This document shows, piece by piece, positions 8,886 to 56,022 of a stretch of 64,000 bases of DNA. The notes under the pieces were generated by a model. That model did not search any database. It had not been told where the DNA came from and worked only from the letters and a program-made list of their open reading frames with translations. Made by a program: the position numbers and the translations under genes. Numbering within the stretch: position 1 is the stretch's first letter; each line of letters begins with the position of its first letter. Source of the stretch: Spirosoma pollinicola (lineage in GTDB: Bacteria > Bacteroidota > Bacteroidia > Cytophagales > Spirosomataceae); contig NZ_CP025096.1 in NCBI RefSeq assembly GCF_002831565.1, positions 4,202,501 through 4,266,500 on the forward strand, written 5' to 3'.

Positions 8886-9446
8886 TTAAAGGAGTTTCTG
8901 TTTTCTCAACCAGGCTTGTATTATGGTTTCGGCCTCTTTTGCTCTGGCTCCCTGAATGACCAACAATTGCCCATCTCGTTCCGAACCGCCCCTGGTCATA
9001 AAGCCTTCTAGTATGTTGCTGTTAGGGCAAAGCTCGGCGACTGTCTGAAAACTACTACCAATGCCATAGCCACCGTTGCTATTGAACGGGATGACGAGTT
9101 TACCCTTCAAGTCATATTGATGCAGAAAGCTTTTTATCGGTGGGGGCAATTGCATACCCCAGGTTGGAAAGCCAACAAACACCACATCGTATTGCTGGAT
9201 ACGACCAATTTTTGTTCGTAAAGGCGGTAGAAAACCCGTTTCATTTTCATGGACTATCTGTTGAACCGTGGCCTGATAGTTCTGCGGGTAAGGCTTTTCT
9301 AATTCGAGAGAGACTAAAGTGCCGCCAATCTGTTTATGAATAATTTCAGCTAAGGCTTTTGTATTGTTCGTGCGCGATAGGTAGACAATCAAAATCTTTT
9401 TTGACGATAGCGATTGCGCATGCGTGATTGTCGAAGGAAAAAACAA
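8886..9446 (-). CDS. Flavodoxin family protein with signal peptide
   Basis: A flavodoxin fold of about 186 residues: 'ILIVYLSRTNNTKALAEII' is the FMN-phosphate-binding loop, 'VFVGFPTWGMQLPPPI' the second FMN loop and 'PFNSNGGYG' the third. The N terminus reads as the end of a signal peptide (FFPSTITHAQS), so the protein is probably exported, unusual for a flavodoxin but common in Bacteroidota. There is no ATG: the frame is open only to 9473, where a TAA lies directly upstream, and the complete hydrophobic signal would need a CTG at 9470 or TTG at 9446. It follows the SMP-30-like gene on the same strand with a short gap and is likely in the same transcript. Confidence 0.75.
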   Translation of the reverse strand: MFFPSTITHAQSLSSKKILIVYLSRTNNTKALAEIIHKQIGGTLVSLELEKPYPQNYQATVQQIVHENETGFLPPLRTKIGRIQQYDVVFVGFPTWGMQLPPPIKSFLHQYDLKGKLVIPFNSNGGYGIGSSFQTVAELCPNSNILEGFMTRGGSERDGQLLVIQGARAKEAETIIQAWLRKQKLL

Positions 9447-14456: not shown

Positions 14457-15010
14457 TTACTTTACTTCTTGCCAAGCTAAGTAGCGGTAAACCGTCGCTC
14501 GGCTTAAGTGAAATAACTGGCCAAGCTCTAAAATCGTATGAGTTTTAAGAGAGTACATAGACTTAACAGCCCGTGCTTTCGCTTGGGCTTCGGGCGTACG
14601 TCCGCCGTGCGTCCCCTGGCTCGAGCCGCAGCTAAACCTGCTTTGGTTCGTTCCCGGATCAAATTTCTTTCAAATTCAGCTAATGACGCAAACAGGTTAA
14701 ACACCAAGCGACCTTGGGCGGTGGTGGTATCGATGGTATCATTCAGACTGCGAAAACCAATTCCTTGGGTCTGAAAGTCGTTGACTAGCGTGAAAAGTTC
14801 TTTTAACGACCTGCCCAGCCGGTCAAGCTTCCAGACAATAACCGTATCATCTTCTCGCAGAATTTCCAGTAGCTTCCGCAATTGGGGTCGTTCTTTAGCC
14901 GAGGAAACTTTCTCCTGAAAGATCTTTTGACAACCTGCTTTTTTCAGGTCATCCAGTTGCAGGGCTAAATTTTGATCTTGCGTTGATACGCGTGCGTTGC
15001 CAAATAACAT
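14457..15010 (-). pseudogene. Frameshifted serine resolvase (Hin/TnpR type)
   Basis: The N-terminal catalytic domain is intact (MLFGNARVST with the nucleophile Ser, 'IVWKLDRLGRSLKEL', 'LAEFERNLIRERTKAGL'). After 'AAARARG' the frame is lost. Reading one frame over gives the missing C-terminal HTH, 'THGGRTPEAQAKARAVKSMY' then 'ATVYRYLAWQEVK' and stop at 14457-14459. The break coincides with a run of four C (four G on the coding strand) at 14613-14616; a fifth would restore the protein. The start is the ATG at 15010; the open frame upstream of it has no resolvase similarity. A normal Tn3-type resolvase is about 185 residues, matching the repaired length. Confidence 0.8.
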
Positions 15011-15258
15011 AAAAAAGCCGAAACCGTTTCGAAGATGTGTACTGATAAAGCTCACTTTTGTGAAGATGCATCTAATAGTCAGTTGGTTGCGGCCGTATGC
15101 TACGAGATAGGGATGAGAGATATGAATTATTAGCTTTTCAACAAATAGAGCCTTTGATGGGATAGCGAGGTTCAATATCTGCCCAATACTATTCAACGTA
15201 TGCATTCCAACTATTTTCGAATTCCCTTATCAAGGTCTCTATACCCTCAAAAGGGAAC

Positions 15259-15306
15259 TTGCAATTGTCAACTGATTGTTATATAATTGTCAACTGATAA
15301 TTGCAA
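15259..15306. promoter_or_regulatory. Likely autoregulatory operator of the toxin-antitoxin pair
   Basis: A 14-base direct repeat (AATTGTCAACTGAT) occurs at 15263-15276 and 15285-15298, exactly 22 bases apart, two helical turns. The whole is framed by an inverted pair TTGCAATT (15259-15266) and AATTGCAA (15299-15306). It lies immediately upstream of the antitoxin start at 15309, the usual place for a DUF2384/Xre antitoxin to bind. Confidence 0.6.
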
Positions 15307-15308
15307 CT

Positions 15309-15719
15309 ATGAAAACTAATCAGCACTTAGCCCCCCACCTAACGGGACTGCGAGCCAAAAGACCTGTTCAAATTAAACCCAACGGACTGGATATACGGCT
15401 TAATCAGTTAGCTCAACAACTCGGCGTTACCCTCAAAGAATTAGCTCCCTTATTGCAGCTCTCGGAAAGTACCCTACACCGACTACGGCGACAAACGGCT
15501 TTGAGCGGACCCACGGCCGAACGGGTTGAGTTATTGCAGCAAGTGATCCAGCATGGTCTGCGGGTGTACGCTGACGATGAGCAGGCCTTGCAGGACTGGC
15601 TGCGCTATCCGCTAGGCGAGTTAGATGGTCGTACTCCGTTGCAAACGCTAACGACCATTGCCGGTTTCACCCAAGTCAATGATGTGTTAGGCAGGATTGA
15701 ACACGGCATCTTCTACTAA
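15309..15719 (+). CDS. Xre/MbcA/ParS-type antitoxin (DUF2384)
   Basis: A 136-residue protein from the ATG that follows the operator. An N-terminal HTH ('LGVTLKELAPLLQLSESTLHR') is followed by the DUF2384 toxin-binding domain: 'LLQQVIQHGLRVYADDEQAL', 'DWLRYPLGELDGRTPLQTL' and the C-terminal 'LGRIEHGIFY'. In family members the C-terminal residues plug the active site of the RES toxin. The toxin gene follows after 29 bases. The pair is a type II system and stabilises mobile DNA, which fits its place among resolvase and IS genes. Confidence 0.9.
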   Translation: MKTNQHLAPHLTGLRAKRPVQIKPNGLDIRLNQLAQQLGVTLKELAPLLQLSESTLHRLRRQTALSGPTAERVELLQQVIQHGLRVYADDEQALQDWLRYPLGELDGRTPLQTLTTIAGFTQVNDVLGRIEHGIFY

Positions 15720-15748
15720 CACGCTCCTCGAATTACCCACCTGACTAC

Positions 15749-16222
15749 ATGCTGGTTTACCGCTTACTACAGGCCGCTTATCGTCATGAGCCCCTGTCTG
15801 GACAAGGAGCTGCCTTGTACGGCGGCCGTTGGAACCCCAAGGGGCTATCGCTGCTGTATACCACCGAATCCCCAGCCTTAAGCTTGCTGGAAGTGATGGT
15901 ACATCTTAATCCTAAACACATACCTCCGTATTACTTAGTCACCATTGAGGTGCCAGACTCGATACGTTCTTTTCAAGAGCAGGACCTGCCAGCTGATTGG
16001 CGAGCCACGGGGAGTGGCCCCCTGTCCTCTCAAACCTTTCTAATGGATTGGCTTCAAAGTCCGGACCGCTTAGTTGTCCAGGTGCCCAGTACGGTGGTAC
16101 CCATCATGGCAAACTATTTGATAAATCCCCGTCATGAACTGTTTTCCCGTTGTCAAGTCGTCAGGTCGGAAGTATTCGAAATTGATGAGCGGCTGTATGA
16201 TTCTTCGCGACGCGGACACTAG
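15749..16222 (+). CDS. RES-domain toxin (NAD+ phosphorylase type)
   Basis: A 157-residue RES-family protein: 'GGRWNPKGLSLLYTTESPALSLLEVMVHL' (in parts GGRWNPKG and SPALSLLEVM) carries the conserved Arg and Glu, and 'LINPRHELFS' the Ser region. Characterised members such as MbcT and Res degrade NAD+ and stop growth until neutralised by the partner antitoxin. It is full length compared with the family (about 150-170 residues) and has all signature residues, so it is probably active. Confidence 0.9.
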   Translation: MLVYRLLQAAYRHEPLSGQGAALYGGRWNPKGLSLLYTTESPALSLLEVMVHLNPKHIPPYYLVTIEVPDSIRSFQEQDLPADWRATGSGPLSSQTFLMDWLQSPDRLVVQVPSTVVPIMANYLINPRHELFSRCQVVRSEVFEIDERLYDSSRRGH

Positions 16223-16309
16223 TTAGCTGAAGGCCAACTAATTAAACAGGCATGATTATGAACATTTCTCTGTCTCAAGGGGGAGCATTTAGATGAGATA
16301 ACTATATAG

Positions 16310-16635
16310 CTAAATCAATTTGCTTGCCTCCTCTACCACGGCTTTAATAAAGGCCGATGAGACGGCTTTGGGACGCTGATCGGTCGTAATTAAATTATGT
16401 CTACGTGCTTAATTCGCCGGATTGGATACGCCTGATTAACCGTGTTGAACACTTTTTTGAATTCGATCAGTCGCTTAGAGAGCAGACCTTCCACTTCACT
16501 ATCTGAAAACAATAAACCGATTGGGCAACTCAATTTCTGGTAATAAACAGTAGGTTTTAAGCTTAAGTAGTGTTGCTCCCAACGAGATAGCACTGAACTT
16601 GCTACATTTGACTGGAGACTTTTTTTAGGCAGATT
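16310..16635 (-). pseudogene. C-terminal remnant, probably of an alpha/beta hydrolase
   Basis: A minus-strand reading frame of about 80 codons ('SRWEQHYLSLKPTVYYQKL', 'CPIGLLFSDSEVEG', 'PIRRIKHVDII') stops at a TAA. Continuing in another frame gives 'LITTDQRPKAVSSAFIKAVV' and 'EEASKLI' to a TAG at 16310-16312. Together they look like the last third of an alpha/beta hydrolase (cap strand, catalytic His region, final helix) with one internal frameshift. The 5' part is missing where the IS3 element begins, so insertion probably destroyed it. Family assignment is tentative. Confidence 0.5.
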
Positions 16636-16671
16636 TGAGGCCAAACTTCAATTTGACCATGGTTAAACGAC

Positions 16672-16687
16672 CGCAATGGCGGACCAT
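16672..16687 (-). repeat. 16-base hairpin module, copy 1 (IS3 OrfA start)
   Basis: ATGGTCCGCCATTGCG read on the minus strand: stem ATGG/CCAT, loop TCCG, tail TGCG. Removing it joins the ATG at 16659 to the [10 protein letters not shown] coding frame. Confidence 0.8.
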
Positions 16688-16719
16688 GTGTGTTTGACGA
16701 AGCATTCAAGGAAATGGCC

Positions 16720-16735
16720 CGCCCCGGCGTACCGG
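16720..16735 (-). repeat. 16-base hairpin module, copy 2 (IS3 OrfA)
   Basis: CCGGTACGCCGGGGCG on the minus strand: stem CCGG/CCGG, loop TACG. It separates codons for FKEMA and VELSYAKG. Here removal of 15 bases, not 16, restores the frame, so one boundary base is ambiguous or has changed. Confidence 0.7.
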
Positions 16736-16925
16736 TCGAGCTGTCTTATGCAAAAGGATCCATTCAAGAGGCAGCTCGCGAATTGGACATCGATCCGGGA
16801 CGAATCAGCAAATGGAGACAACGGCACAAAAAAAACGATCGAATTCTCCCTGACAATACCACCCTTACGGACGAACAGCAACAGATCAGAAGGCTACAAC
16901 GAGAGCTCAGAGAAGCTCAGATGGA

Positions 16926-16941
16926 TCGGAGCGCCGAAGCG
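16926..16941 (+). repeat. 16-base hairpin module, copy 3 (IS3 OrfA end)
   Basis: TCGGAGCGCCGAAGCG: stem TCGG/CCGA, loop AGCG, tail AGCG. It splits the conserved OrfA sequence AQM-ERDILKKA; exact 16-base removal restores it. Confidence 0.85.
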
Positions 16942-17482
16942 ACGCGATATACTAAAGAAGGCGGTCAGCATCTTCTCCAGGGGAGACGGGAAATTTTCCG
17001 ATTTATAAAGGAACACGCCAACGAATTTCCCACGGTCCGCCGCGCGGTTGAGAAGATGTGTAAAGTACTGAACGTGAGTAGCAGTGGCTATTATTATTGG
17101 CGTAAACATCCAGTTGGAAGCAGGCAACTGAATCAAGATAAGTTGATCAACCACATCCGACAAGTGCATGGCAAAAGCCAATCTCGGTACGGTAGCCCCC
17201 GGATTGCGGATGAACTCCGCGAGCAGGGAGTGAAAGCCTCCCGTAACCGCATTGCCAGACTGATGAAGAAGGTAGGTCTTCGTAGCCTCATGTACAAAAA
17301 GTTTCGAGTGCAAACTACGGAATCAAATCACAACTACTCCATAGCTGAAAACGTGCTGAATAGAGAGTTCACGGCCGATAAACCAGGGCAAAAGTGGGTC
17401 TCAGACCTCACTTATATCGCCACTGGTCAAGGGTGGCTTTATCTGACGGTAATTTTAGATCTGGCCGACCGAAAAGTGATTG

Positions 17483-17498
17483 CAGGGCCGCCTGTGCG
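17483..17498 (+). repeat. 16-base hairpin module, copy 4 (IS3 OrfB)
   Basis: CAGGGCCGCCTGTGCG: stem CAGG/CCTG, loop GCCG, tail TGCG. It splits [17 protein letters not shown] in the DDE domain; exact removal restores the frame. Confidence 0.85.
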
Positions 17499-17675
17499 GC
17501 TGGGCCATGAGCGATAGTATGAAAGCGATGGAGACAAGTGTGGCAGCTTGGCGTATGGCCCTCACAAATAGAGCAATAAGTGGCCAACTTCTGTTTCATT
17601 CAGACCGTGGCATTCAATTTGCCTGCACGGACTTTAAGGATGAACTAAAGGACTTGCCGGTGGTGCAAAGTATGA

Positions 17676-17691
17676 CCGGGCTGCCGATGCA
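17676..17691 (+). repeat. 16-base hairpin module, copy 5 (IS3 OrfB)
   Basis: CCGGGCTGCCGATGCA: near-stem CCGG/CCGA, loop GCTG, tail TGCA. It splits VVQSM-SRKGNCWDNAVAES; exact removal restores the frame up to the catalytic Glu. Confidence 0.8.
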
Positions 17692-17950
17692 GTCGGAAGG
17701 GAAACTGTTGGGATAATGCCGTTGCCGAGAGCTTTTTCAAGACCCTCAAGTGCGAGATGGTCAATCATACTTATTTTACCACACGGGCAGCGGCTCGGTT
17801 GGCTACCTTCGAGTATATCGAGAGTTGCTACAACCGCCAACGGAAACATTCGGTGTTGAATTACCGCACGCCCAGTCAGCAGGAATCTTATTTTTACACT
17901 TCCTCAATGGCTGCCTAAAAAAATCTCCACTATAAAGTTGCAAGTCCACA

Positions 17951-18424
17951 TTCACTATTTGCACTAAAGCAATAAACGTAGTTATGATAAGTATCAAAAA
18001 TTCTATTACTAAAATGGTATATTACTAAGATTAAACCTGCTGCCTTTTACTAGGCAATATTGTAAAACGAGCTTATGACTCTGTCCAGTAAAAGGAAGCA
18101 AGACCAAACAGCGCAGGAAGCCACTTATAGGGGCTATCAATAATAGGAAAAGTAGCTACATAACTGTTGTATGTATGCAACAGCAGCCCCCTACCAGACG
18201 GCAACTGTTTCGTTGAAAACACCTTCCTATAAATTGTAGTTTACTGATTACCCCTTGCTATTCACACCTATGCTTCGTTCATCCGATTCTGCTGACCAAC
18301 CAGCAAAACCAAATGACTACGCTAACGACCGTCCGGAAATCGAGCAGCTTACTCGGCTATTTCTGAGCTGGCAGCGCCACCTGGCCAAGGCTATAAGACG
18401 GGGTGATACTAAACCACTACACCC
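17951..18424. other. Intergenic region before the histidine kinase
   Basis: About 470 bases, AT-rich for the first 110. I see no RNA gene or repeat. A frame from 18270 to 18533 (87 codons, beginning MLRSSDSADQPAKPNDYAND and continuing PEIEQLTRLFLSWQRHLAKA) has a protein-like first half and overlaps the kinase start in another frame. It could be a short upstream gene or a former N-terminal extension. Confidence 0.45.
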
Positions 18425-20059
18425 ATGTTGGACGAGCAAACACCTTCCCATCACGATAAGGCTCTCGCTGAGCGAGTTGACCTGGACTTTGCCTTACAGG
18501 CGGCTGGTCTGGGAGTCTGGGAGATCGACTTAACCACCAACCTGATCCGCTGGGATCAGCGATGCCAGGCCCTGTTTGGCTTGACGGCTTCGAATTCGGA
18601 TCAACTTCGGTATCAGGAAGCGATCCGGGGCATTCATCCCGATGACATCGAGCGGGTCCGACTTGCCCTTCAGGCGGCCATGAATCCATCCACAGACCGA
18701 CCTTTTGATCTAACCTGCCGAACGATTGGTGCCGAGGATCGACAGCTGCGCTGGATTCGGTTTACGGGCCGAAGCTATTTTAGTCAAACCGGCCAGCCCC
18801 TTCGGTTAGCCGGTATTGCCCACGATATCACCCGGCAGGTAGACGAGCAGTTGCAGGCCCAGCAAACCGCCCAGCATCTCCAGGCCGTGTTAGATAGCTC
18901 ACCGGCGGTCATTAGCTTTCTCAAGCCGGTCCTCAATGAGACCGGTGAGGTGGTAAATTTTGTGCTGGTGGTCTGCAACCAGCGCTTAGCCCAACTCAGT
19001 CAAAAATCAATCGATCAACTCCGGCATCAGTCCTTTACTCAGCTTAGTCATATCCTGTGGCAAAACCAGACATTCACCAATCTGCTGTACGTGTTGCAAA
19101 CGGGCGAGCCGTTCTACCAGGAACAACCCGAACAAACGCCCCAGGGCGAGCGCTGGTTCAGTATTTCCGTGACCAAATGGGATGGTGGGGTGGTCCTGAC
19201 CGGACTTGATATTAGCCCCCTCAAAGAGAGTCAACGGCAACTACAACAGGGGCTAGGCGAACTTAACGAATTTAAAGAAAGCCGGGCCGACCTTCAGGCG
19301 CTACTAGCCCTGGTGCAACAGCGGGGCGAGCTGCTGCGAGCGGCCTCCCATGACCTCCGGGGTAATCTCAACATTCTGTCTGGCGTCATCGGTCTGCTGG
19401 AAATTAATGTCCAGCCCAACGAACGCATCCCCCCCATGCTGGAACTCATGCGCCGGAACGTCCGACAGGCCGCCCAGATGATAACGAACTTGTTGGACTA
19501 TGTCCGCCTGGAAGAAGGCCAGGAACAACTTAATCCGGCCGTTGTTGACGTGTCGGATCTGTTAACCGGCTTAGTAAGGGGCATCAAATCGGTCGCCTTA
19601 GAGAAGGGCCTGATGGTGACGGCCACTGGCCCCAAGCGCCTACTGGTCGAGGGCGATGCGCTCAACCTGAACCGGATTGGGCAAAACCTGTTCTTAACCG
19701 TCATTAAGTTCACAACGCAAGGGCCCCTTCGGGTGAGCTGGGACGTCGATCCGGATCAAGACTGGTGGTGGTTTAGTGTGGCCAATATCGCATCCGACGA
19801 AGAATTACTTCATACTCTGCAGGAAGAGCTCACGGATCTATCCGGCCACCCGGCCACCCTAGAGCACCAATCACTAAGTAGCGCCTTCCCAACACCCCAA
19901 ACTACCGCAAAAGGTCGTTCGGGGGACGAGATCGGACTCCGCATCGTGCGGCAGTTAGTGGGCCTGTTACGGGCAAAGTTCCAGGTAAAACGCGAGCCAG
20001 ATGGAGGAGTTAAACTCATTGTTAGCTTGCCCATAAGCTATTCATCGCCTACCCAGTGA
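18425..20059 (+). CDS. PAS-domain sensor histidine kinase, degenerate ATPase
   Basis: A 544-residue cytosolic protein without membrane helices. Two PAS regions are seen: 'GLGVWEIDLTTNLIRWDQRC' to 'GIAHDITRQ', and 'VLDSSPAVISFLKP' to 'GLDISPLKES'. A coiled coil leads to the HisKA helix with 'LLRAASHDLRGNLNILSGVI' (phospho-acceptor His). The ATPase domain is unusual: the N-box reads 'GQNLFLTVIKFT', and the D-x-G-x-G box is replaced by 'VANIASDEELL'; only a G2-like 'GDEIGLRIVRQLVGLL' is present. ATP binding may be weak, or the protein may be a signalling scaffold. No response regulator gene is adjacent. Confidence 0.8.
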   Translation: MLDEQTPSHHDKALAERVDLDFALQAAGLGVWEIDLTTNLIRWDQRCQALFGLTASNSDQLRYQEAIRGIHPDDIERVRLALQAAMNPSTDRPFDLTCRTIGAEDRQLRWIRFTGRSYFSQTGQPLRLAGIAHDITRQVDEQLQAQQTAQHLQAVLDSSPAVISFLKPVLNETGEVVNFVLVVCNQRLAQLSQKSIDQLRHQSFTQLSHILWQNQTFTNLLYVLQTGEPFYQEQPEQTPQGERWFSISVTKWDGGVVLTGLDISPLKESQRQLQQGLGELNEFKESRADLQALLALVQQRGELLRAASHDLRGNLNILSGVIGLLEINVQPNERIPPMLELMRRNVRQAAQMITNLLDYVRLEEGQEQLNPAVVDVSDLLTGLVRGIKSVALEKGLMVTATGPKRLLVEGDALNLNRIGQNLFLTVIKFTTQGPLRVSWDVDPDQDWWWFSVANIASDEELLHTLQEELTDLSGHPATLEHQSLSSAFPTPQTTAKGRSGDEIGLRIVRQLVGLLRAKFQVKREPDGGVKLIVSLPISYSSPTQ

Positions 20060-26444: not shown

Positions 26445-26460
26445 TGCGCCGGCAGCCCGG
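26445..26460 (-). repeat. 16-base hairpin module, copy 6 (IS4)
   Basis: CCGGGCTGCCGGCGCA on the minus strand: stem CCGG/CCGG, loop GCTG, tail CGCA; closest to copy 5. It splits HQQGID-FVIRLQRE; exact removal restores the frame. Confidence 0.85.
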
Positions 26461-26729: not shown

Positions 26730-26745
26730 CCGGGGCGCCGGAGCG
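26730..26745 (+). repeat. 16-base hairpin module, copy 7 (IS4)
   Basis: CCGGGGCGCCGGAGCG: stem CCGG/CCGG, loop GGCG, tail AGCG. It sits inside the Y-R-E-K motif (RWRI-EQCFKALK); exact removal restores it. Confidence 0.85.
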
Positions 26746-26797: not shown

Positions 26798-26813
26798 CGC
26801 TCCGGCGTCCCGG
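26798..26813 (-). repeat. 16-base hairpin module, copy 8 (IS4)
   Basis: CCGGGACGCCGGAGCG on the minus strand, 15 of 16 identical to copy 7 but in opposite orientation, 52 bases away. Removal restores LESM-KFKQSAKIEL. Confidence 0.85.
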
Positions 26814-43580: not shown

Positions 43581-43718
43581 TTTAGGATTTTGATTCCGAA
43601 CGAGTTTTTGTCATCCCGACGAAGGAGGGATCTTCGGGATAAATGAAAAACTCTACCTACCCCGAAGATCCCTCCTTCGTCGGGATGACAAAAACTCGTT
43701 CGGAATCAAAATCCTAAA
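43581..43718. repeat. Perfect 58-bp inverted repeat
   Basis: Arms 43581-43638 and 43661-43718 are exact reverse complements of 58 bases with a 22-base loop. The arms start TTTAGGATTTTGATTCCGAA and contain GTCATCCCGACGAAGGAGGG. It lies between the anti-sigma gene's end and the msrB promoter region; it may serve as a terminator or be a MITE-like intergenic repeat. Confidence 0.9.
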
Positions 43719-54644: not shown

Positions 54645-54660
54645 CGCTCCGGCGTACCGG
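54645..54660 (-). repeat. 16-base hairpin module, copy 9 (array DNA)
   Basis: CCGGTACGCCGGAGCG on the minus strand: stem CCGG/CCGG, loop TACG, tail AGCG. It is in non-coding array DNA, the only copy found outside a transposase gene. Confidence 0.75.
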
Positions 54661-54884: not shown

Positions 54885-56022
54885 TCAAGAGTCCACTAAC
54901 TCGCCTATATTTACTTCCTTAAGCACGGCCCCCTGGGGTTGATGCCGGGTAGCCTCTTGAGTTGGGGCTACTTTTTTTTGAGTCACGGGCTCGTAAGTCG
55001 GATCATAGGGCTCGTCCTTTTTCCACAAAGCGAAGATCAACGTGAGCAGTTTGCGCTGCACGGCTACATAGCCTTTCATCTTGATATTAGTCTGTTTAAA
55101 GACCTGTTCATAGAGGTCAATGAAGGGTCTTTGCTCAAAGGTCACCATCATCAAAGCCGGCATGTGTAACGCCCGTCGAATGCGAGTGTTGCCCCGTTTA
55201 CTAATGCGGGTCTTGCCTACCCGTTTGCCACCGCACGGGCGGCCCCGTTTGATTTTCTACCACGTCATAGCCTGCAAAGCTCACCAGTTGCCGTTGATTC
55301 TCGAAGAGAGCGAACTCGTTGGTCTCGGTGATCAGATTGGCTACGGTCAGTTCGCCCACGCCCTTGATGCGGCAGATCTGCTCGGTTTTTCGTTTCCATT
55401 CGGCATTCTCCTTGATAGCTTTGTGGATAAGTTTGAGACATTGGGCCAGTTGTTTATCCAACTCAGCGATGAGCGTTTTCAACTGCACTTTAACCGTCAG
55501 CGAGTGATACATGCCTACTTCAAGGGACATCAGTTGATTATTTACCTGCGTTTTAAAGGTTTGTAGATCAGTATATTGACGGGTTAGCTGATGTAGGATA
55601 TACATGGCTTCGCTAATGGGTCTCCAGGCTTCCAGGGCCTGCTGACAAACCATCATAGCCAGTGCCTGAGCATCAACCCCATCGGTCTTTGTTTTGATGC
55701 CCAGGGCTTTGATGTAGTACTTGGCTTTCTGGGGTAAGACTACGCAAACATGCACCTGCTGGCGGTGTAGAGCCAGAGCCAATTACTCGTAGTAGACCCC
55801 TGTGGCTTCCATCAAATAATGGACAAGTATACCCGGCTCTTTACAATGATGGTCGCTCCACTGGAGGAAATCAAGAATGCCGGTTGGAGTATTTTTGAAG
55901 GCTCGGGTCGCCTTTACTTTAACGCGTTGAGTAGGATCGATAGCACTGACGCAGGCATGAAATTCATCCTTACCCATGTCAATACCAACACCATATTTGA
56001 GCGGTTTTAGGTTCGCTTCCAT
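54885..56022 (-). pseudogene. IS110 transposase broken by one TAA and one 16-base insert
   Basis: DEDD RuvC-like domain at the N terminus ('YGVGIDMGKDEFHACVSAID', 'VHYLMEATGVYYE'), then a TAA at 55783-55785 where CAA (Gln) would fit, then 'LALALHRQQVHVCVVLPQKA', 'IKTKTDGVDAQALAM', helix-hairpin-helix 'ICRIKGVGELTVANLITETN' and 'LVSFAGYDVVENQ'. The 16-base insert at 55232-55247 breaks it; removing it gives 'SGKRVGKTRISKRGNTRIRR' with the conserved C-terminal Ser region and runs to the stop at 54885. Otherwise complete. Start taken at MEANLKPL; an upstream Met lies at 56046. Confidence 0.8.
55232..55247 (-). repeat. 16-base hairpin module, copy 10 (IS110)
   Basis: CGGGGCCGCCCGTGCG on the minus strand: stem CGGG/CCCG, loop GCCG, tail TGCG; closest to copy 4 in the IS3 element (14 of 16). 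Exact removal restores VVENQ-SGKRVGKT. Confidence 0.85.

Follow-up and report, generated by a model that had tools for sequence, protein, structure and literature searches.

Six inserts of 15–16 nt interrupt an IS3-family transposase gene in a 64,000-nt stretch of the Spirosoma pollinicola genome (hereafter the window), and each of them is probably a copy of a tiny mobile DNA element found in Spirosoma and related bacteria. We infer the movement of these modules from empty and filled sites and from their dispersal, not from direct observation.

An IS3 copy interrupted by six modules

The IS3 copy of the window was aligned with L002, L003, L004, L006, L007, L008 and L010, all from the same genome (G000). 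The alignment revealed that all six segments are exactly missing in L003 and L004, and likewise in the partial copies L007, L008 and L010 where these were covered (Table 1); in the uninterrupted paralogue L003, Pfam matched HTH_Tnp_1, HTH_21 and rve. The original prediction, made from the sequence alone, had named five inserts splitting one transposase, and measured against these same-genome paralogues all five proved to be real, correctly located insertions, and a sixth, the in-frame 15-mer at 17032–17046, had been overlooked. The predicted length of 16 nt, with one insert perhaps 15, needs amending, because two inserts measure 15 nt, namely the one at 16720 (net) and the module at 17032. As claimed, OrfA and OrfB are restored once the inserts are set aside, with neither a stop nor any other frame-changing indel.

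Table 1 Features of the IS3 copy and further modules in the window
Feature	Position	Strand	Remarks
IS3-family element (OrfA/OrfB), six modules inside	16610..17935	+	full-length DNA match to L002, L003, L004
Left terminal inverted repeat of IS3 copy	16620..16632	+	perfect 13-nt repeat with 17911-17923
Module 1	16672..16687	+	16 nt, CGCAATGGCGGACCAT, shifts frame, IS3 site 63
Module 2	16720..16734	+	15 nt net, CGCCCCGGCGTACCG(G), in frame, IS3 site 95
Module 3	16926..16941	-	16 nt, minus reading CGCTTCGGCGCTCCGA, IS3 site 286
Module 4	17032..17046	-	15 nt, minus reading CGCGCGGCGGACCGT, in frame, IS3 site 376
Module 5	17483..17498	-	16 nt, minus reading CGCACAGGCGGCCCTG, IS3 site 811
Module 6	17676..17691	-	16 nt, minus reading TGCATCGGCAGCCCGG, T1-A10 type, IS3 site 988
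Right terminal inverted repeat of IS3 copy	17911..17923	-	partner of 16620-16632
Further module, in transposase-like frame (by eye)	26445..26460	+	T1-A10 type
Further candidate module	26730..26745	-	
Further candidate module	26798..26813	+	
Further module, same family	54645..54660	+	
Further module, in IS110-type transposase gene (gene on minus)	55232..55247	+	PF01548, PF02371 on upstream half

Two of the six modules are in frame and four shift it, and a full transposase should therefore not be made; two read in the plus and four in the minus orientation. Module 1 is missing in L002, L003, L004, L007, L008 and L010, and module 2 is common to L002 and missing in L003, L004, L007, L008 and L010. 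Overall, L002 has two of the six window modules (16720 and 17676) and L006 has one (17483, filled at the same site).

A dispersed family of short modules

Read in one orientation, the modules share the form C1 G2 C3 N4 x5 y6 G7 G8 C9 G10 N11 N12 C13 C14 y'15 x'16, which together with the insertion point gives the family pattern C|CGCN-xyGG-CGNN-CCy'x'. The net insertion length is 15 or 16 nt, and 14 at one site (527); the 15-mers have one base fewer within N4-y6 or, at site 95, a target base that is apparently replaced. Across the whole 8.79-Mb genome, CGCNNNGGCGNNCC matched 317 times versus 30 for its backwards-read control. In 400 kb of unselected sequence, the paired model gave 17 matches; a control with reversed anchors gave 1, and three Markov-resampled controls gave 1, 2 and 4. 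About six of the 17 lie in genes and appear to be fortuitous. From the CGCNNNGGCGNNCC count and the 400-kb matches, with about 6 of 17 taken as chance, we estimate roughly 250–350 modules in G000.

A survey of 150 genomes of the same family, which we take to be Spirosomataceae, revealed many that are enriched and many that are not; enriched examples (matches versus control) are G005, Spirosoma profusum BT702 (350 versus 40), G337 (382 versus 26), G230 (299 versus 41) and G251 (45 versus 1). Among 198 genomes across the phylum, those beyond the family that had over 20 matches all stayed within fourfold of their control, the nearest to this limit being G164 with 66 matches versus 17. Of 80 IS3-type loci among the matches listed, the three from Spirosoma and Arsenicibacter (L122, L129 and L134) contain 13 module matches and the remaining 77 (one from Dyadobacter, the rest from other groups by title) contain 2. 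Rfam gave no known RNA at 15000–19000 of the window up to E 0.5, and a search of the accessible literature returned no account of these modules in Spirosoma or relatives.

Covariation supports crossing base pairs

For the covariation analysis, 27 unique 16-mers from real IS3 insertions of the genus were fitted to the conserved anchors only, which avoids selecting for pairs; the set comprises only 16-mers with all anchors and so contains no 15-mers, no mutated copies and none of the 14-mers from site 527. Watson-Crick pairing was found between positions 5 and 16 in 23/27, between 6 and 15 in 26/27 and between 1 and 10 in 26/27, and the pairing at 5-16, 6-15 or 1-10 was equalled in 0/20000 shuffles, which retain the kinship of the module types. 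In some modules C1-G10 is swapped for G1-C10 and T1-A10. The hairpin consists of 5-16, 6-15, 7-14 and 8-13 and is crossed by 1-10 and 2-9, where positions 7, 8, 2 and 9 are fixed anchors. Single-strand DNA folding of six modules yielded either of two competing hairpins, and one of the six folded clearly better than its own shuffles, so that covariation, not folding energy, is the basis for the structure. As energy folding alone gives one helix or the other, both a pseudoknot and a switch are possible.

Precise insertion beside a retained target base

Comparison of empty and filled sites in the IS3 copies and in three unrelated non-coding sequences revealed that insertion is precise, occurs on either strand and proceeds without target duplication. 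The non-coding contexts are a CTCTGTG repeat (CTCTGTGC|CTCTGTGG), the terminal repeats of an IS1182-type element (CTTTTGCAAC|AGCCAC) and a single palindromic repeat entered at two sites, TTTTGTCAT|CCCGA and CCTCCTGC|GTCGG, where one insert is 15 nt net. The target duplication of a MITE is hence absent at the empty and filled sites compared, and insertion 3' of a retained target without duplication is the behaviour of IS200/IS605-type elements. The base before the insertion point (base 0) is usually C and sometimes T, and is already there in empty copies, as in TTTTGTCAT|CCCGA, at IS3 site 913 (ending CAT) and in CTCTGTGC|CTCTGTGG.

Base 0 pairs with base 11 of the module in 56 of 66 cases (36.4 expected) in G337, a genome of another genus, and in 63 of 75 (47.7 expected) in G000, with 0/2000 shuffles as good in each. 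The combinations are C0 with G11 and T0 with A11; exceptions are C0 with T11 in 6/75 cases of G000 and T0 with C11 at IS3 site 723, where base 0 itself varies between copies. For G337, the first 100 matches out of 365 (76 in the control) were considered; two exact duplicates were dropped, and of the remaining 98, 66 passed the pair filter, which took no account of bases 0 and 11. Base 0 versus base 12 was positive in G337 alone (13 versus 7.3, p =.0035) and not in G000, and none of the other flank pairs tested was positive in both genomes.

Among 12 loci that have paired arms or paired terminal repeats, both copies of the site were filled in five cases and both empty in seven, and none was mixed, counted with patterns that accept both states and with single-arm matches left out. 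The filled loci are L062, L245, L061, L087 and L069, the last an IS1182-type element with a module at the same position of both terminal repeats. In the window, a palindromic intergenic repeat at 43606–43680 has TTTTGTCATCCCGA in both arms, that is, an empty site; at L062 and L245 the corresponding site holds a module in either arm.

Recurrent sites in IS3 copies

Thirty-one IS3 loci were aligned, and 26 together with the reference L003 entered the site and identity analyses; L008, L010, L017, L030 and L097, the latter with a module at site 913, were dropped. In rows from 15 genomes, 72 listed insertions occupy 20 sites, and two odd inserts (L023 at 312 and L099 at 130) stand outside this list. 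The same sites are filled across backbones mostly about 75% identical: site 63 in 10 rows, of which the nine besides the window copy all come from other genomes, site 988 in 8 rows, with two module types at one nucleotide, site 95 in 7 rows and site 286 in 5 rows, all of xy type TC/GA. The Arsenicibacter rosenii copy L134 is filled at 527 and 988 according to the alignment and at 95 and 286 according to the flanks. Module type is tied to site: when modules of different genomes are compared in pairs, xy agrees in 70 of 143 same-site pairs versus 270 of 1847 different-site pairs, with 0/5000 shuffles as good (67 of the 72 insertions, shuffles that retain kinship). A single target base cannot account for these fixed sites.

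L092 and L093, copies of two genomes, have 99.35% identity over 1222 nt (8 substitutions). L093 differs further by a deletion of 2 nt and by two extra modules, one at site 63 and one at site 988, whose flanks are unchanged. Because L091 also lacks both modules, we take the two as probable gains in L093. The identity excess within 10 nt of a site amounted to.063 for filled-filled,.048 for filled-empty and.022 for empty-empty comparisons, and since filled copies are hardly more alike near shared sites, copying of longer tracts fails as the cause of recurrence; very short conversion tracts could add to it. In another IS3 subgroup, L070 has a module near 9202 which, by eye, lies at a protein position like that of IS3 site 913, ahead of the second catalytic D motif, in surrounding DNA unlike that of site 913.

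Convincing modules lie in intergenic DNA and mobile-element genes

Placement was surveyed in 864 kb, made up of 40 stretches and the window; the stretches were picked partly for matches, so that densities are biased. The unselected 400 kb is a separate set without this bias. Frames of 200 codons or more hold 25 of the 91 modules in the 864 kb, versus 689/1000 random positions. These 25 comprise 16 in transposase frames (seven of them in the window IS3 copy and the L009 copy), two in recombinase frames, three in host genes and four ahead of a gene start, and the letters of the three host-gene matches have the look of native coding sequence. Open frames make up 90% of the unselected 400 kb, yet ten of its 17 matches fall outside or at the edge of frames, one precedes the start of a purK-like gene and six lie inside genes; of these six, three look native when translated and the other three are of the A1-T10 kind. 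Convincing modules inside host genes were found neither among the 25 of 91 in long frames nor among the 17 of the unselected 400 kb, in a reading that centred on frames of at least 200 codons. So far, convincing modules have turned up only in intergenic DNA and mobile-element genes.

Module removal rejoins conserved transposase parts of IS110 types (window 55232, L063, L078), of IS3 types (L070, and L078 at 15119 with HTH_21 only) and, according to Pfam, of an IS1182 type with DUF772 (L064); these family labels are in part our own presumption. The joins were found by reading frames and not by an automatic joining test, in which removal yielded a frame of at least 150 codons for 3/91 modules versus 23/1000 random positions, that is, without enrichment. 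One of the three automatic joins, at window 45217 (A1-T10 kind, near a sigma-factor-like frame), is probably due to chance. The searched half of the transposase-like frame at 26445 had no Pfam match.

Constraint and decay in module-bearing copies

Ordinary stops or indels occur in 14/21 module-bearing IS3 rows, some of them doubtful and at alignment ends, versus 1/6 module-free rows. Among eight full-length lesion-free copies, six carry modules, and L023 combines 11 inserts (one odd) with no other lesion. Comparison of L023 with L024, which have 11 inserts each and five sites in common, gave dS 0.76 and dN 0.058 (ratio 0.076). The private changes of the module-bearing copies L001 (9N:27S) and L023 (8N:38S) are similar to those of the intact copies L003 (16:28) and L004 (11:47), the neutral expectation being about 2.8–3.7 to 1. 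In the module-rich draft genome G355, two copies 98.5% identical outside the inserts have one frame-shifting module each at different sites, and differ by 5 non-synonymous and 10 synonymous codons without any other lesion. L092 and L093 differ by five non-synonymous changes and one synonymous change, which are small numbers.

We prefer to read the lesion-free module-bearing copies as dead after a fast burst, and the constraint that they exhibit is then explained by short time, because L093 suggests that two modules can be gained within about eight substitutions. L023, with its 11 inserts and 8N:38S, asks for a very fast burst and counts against the mobile-element reading. Interrupted IS1182-type copies were considered as support for a protein that is still made and rejected, because three of four aligned copies (L223, L224 and L225) have stops by eye.

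Y1 transposases as candidate mobilisers

Y1 transposases were searched with PF01797 in 36 genomes of the genus and in 14 chosen genomes, and 37 Y1 loci were scanned for modules. Strong matches were obtained in G000 and in seven of the eight module-rich genomes of the 14-genome set; the eighth, G355 (80 contigs), had no PF01797 match, and the module-poor genomes G236, G254 and G233 had strong ones. At 4/37 loci, the Y1 domain either contains a module or has one at a distance of no more than about 200 bp. The one striking case is L113, where inverted modules at 1454–1469 and 1892–1907 flank an IS200-type Y1 gene 30–40 bp from the domain. No consistent link emerged, and Y1 (RAYT) enzymes are somewhat unlikely as the mobiliser. 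As for the tag of REP elements, the position profile has no GTAG or CGTC and reads A/G-C|CGCN; with 15–16 nt (14 at one site), the modules also fall short of the 20–40 nt of REP elements. At L284 near 2338, in Spirosoma profusum, a module lies within the start of an IS200-type Y1 transposase gene.

A possible route of movement and its alternatives

Judged from these patterns, the module may travel as folded single-stranded DNA that an enzyme would cut and join. The site would be chosen partly by pairing of the target base with N11, by analogy with the IS200/IS605 guides that pair with their target. Copies would last in intergenic DNA and transposase genes because insertions in host genes are lost by selection, and the window IS3 copy would be otherwise undecayed because the burst was recent. 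The complete picture, a 16-nt element with two crossing helices that homes to fixed sites by its own base pairing, is handled by an unassigned enzyme and through its hits in transposase genes acts as a brake on insertion sequences, is tentative and in our view rather doubtful as a whole.

That the modules represent REP elements of exceptionally small size, mobilised by REP-associated Y1 transposases, is somewhat unlikely: precise insertion beside a retained base, a hairpin, guide-like pairing, intergenic inverted module pairs 60–140 nt apart, the strong Y1 matches in most module-rich genomes and the module on each side of the L113 gene are all of the kind expected, but the missing tag, the short length, the absence of a Y1 match in G355, its presence in three module-poor genomes and the rarity of modules beside Y1 genes argue against it. 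We also regard it as unlikely, and slightly more so, that the modules are old and that their spread, between IS copies and between palindromic repeats, is mainly due to gene conversion over short tracts and not to new transposition. The tie between module type and site and the uniform state of paired arms at all 12 loci are consistent with such copying; it is opposed by the little local identity excess between filled copies, which is all that our identity tests for conversion revealed, by the unchanged flanks at the two additional modules of L093 relative to L092, and by the occurrence of one family in many unrelated contexts.

The original prediction had left two readings side by side, a recent burst of a tiny mobile module or inserts tolerated by a bypass at the RNA or translation level. 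The first has gained from the dispersed family, the covariation, the empty and filled sites and the two-module difference between L092 and L093; the second has lost ground. It would have the ribosome skip the modules, or the RNA lose them, with transposases still at work as in the case of the Magnusiomyces byps, and it draws on the lesion-free copies, on the low dN/dS of L023 versus L024 with their five shared sites and on the G355 pair. Against it stand the lack of a convincing host-gene module in the long-frame set and the unselected 400 kb, the stops and indels in two thirds of the module-bearing IS3 rows, the 5N:1S of the closest pair and, by eye, insertions in all codon phases without matching take-off or landing codons, and we consider it very unlikely. 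An assembly artefact or ordinary pseudogene decay would fit a broken transposase in what is, after all, an assembled sequence, but the same family in many assemblies from at least two named genera, with covariation and empty and filled sites, leaves this account with next to no probability. A mobile element thus remains the reading that we prefer.

If this is true, the module would rank among the smallest mobile DNA elements known, and it occurs in bacteria that can be cultivated; its empty sites are clear, its structure covaries, and pairing apparently serves to read the target base. The movement of enzyme-free micro-repeats such as SDR and REP would become directly testable, and a compact, possibly guide-paired insertion system would be on offer. 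The IS3 copies also show that a transposase can be broken many times without other decay, and if the brake reading is true, modules act as a natural brake on insertion sequences via catalytic transposase stretches.

Relation to known small elements

In 2008, Elhai reportedly described small dispersed repeats, among them SDR5, from Nostoc and further cyanobacteria. SDR5 inserts precisely inside HIP1 sites (PMC4390886), and cyanobacterial small dispersed repeats are also treated in PMC2884548. Likened by description, the Spirosoma modules are likewise very small, dispersed and precisely inserted: the cyanobacterial repeats are modules of about 20 nt that insert at a specific short sequence and are possibly mobile, but they belong to another phylum, and the Spirosoma modules differ by their 15–16 nt, crossing pairs and target-base pairing. 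REP and REPIN elements with RAYT (PMC3733652, PMC3116915) are similar as short dispersed hairpins in intergenic inverted pairs, whereas the modules are shorter, have neither a GTAG/CGTC tag nor a regular Y1 neighbour, and often lie inside transposase genes. IS608 of the IS200/IS605 family (PMC5934647) shares insertion just 3' of a retained target, and pairing between element and target may be a further likeness; in contrast to it, the modules are enzyme-less and 16 nt long, and the pairing would involve a single target base where IS608 uses four.

Short frame-interrupting inserts whose removal restores the frame are also known as byps from Magnusiomyces mitochondria (PMC5009743). There they occur in most of the protein genes, and translation proceeds past them, whereas for the modules no toleration in functional host genes was found in the 400 kb or in the frames of at least 200 codons that were read. 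Rickettsia palindromic elements are also small palindromic repeats within genes, but measure 105–146 bp and lie in frame in host genes (PMC2229807). The nearest known relatives are cyanobacterial small dispersed repeats and REP/REPIN elements and, for the target pairing, IS608.

Neighbourhood of the IS3 copy

Directly upstream of the IS3 copy, at 15303–16222 on the plus strand of the window, lie two genes, of which the first encodes an antitoxin of the Xre/MbcA/ParS type (PF09722) and the second a RES-domain protein (PF08808). Elsewhere in G000, at 7.3–8.7 Mb, short copies (L010–L020) match only the first or last approximately 280 nt of the window IS3 element and are possibly internally deleted derivatives. 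A resolvase-type serine recombinase gene (PF00239) is located at 14528–15205 on the minus strand of the window, and a similar gene at another place in G000, L052, has a module near its start, close to position 975.
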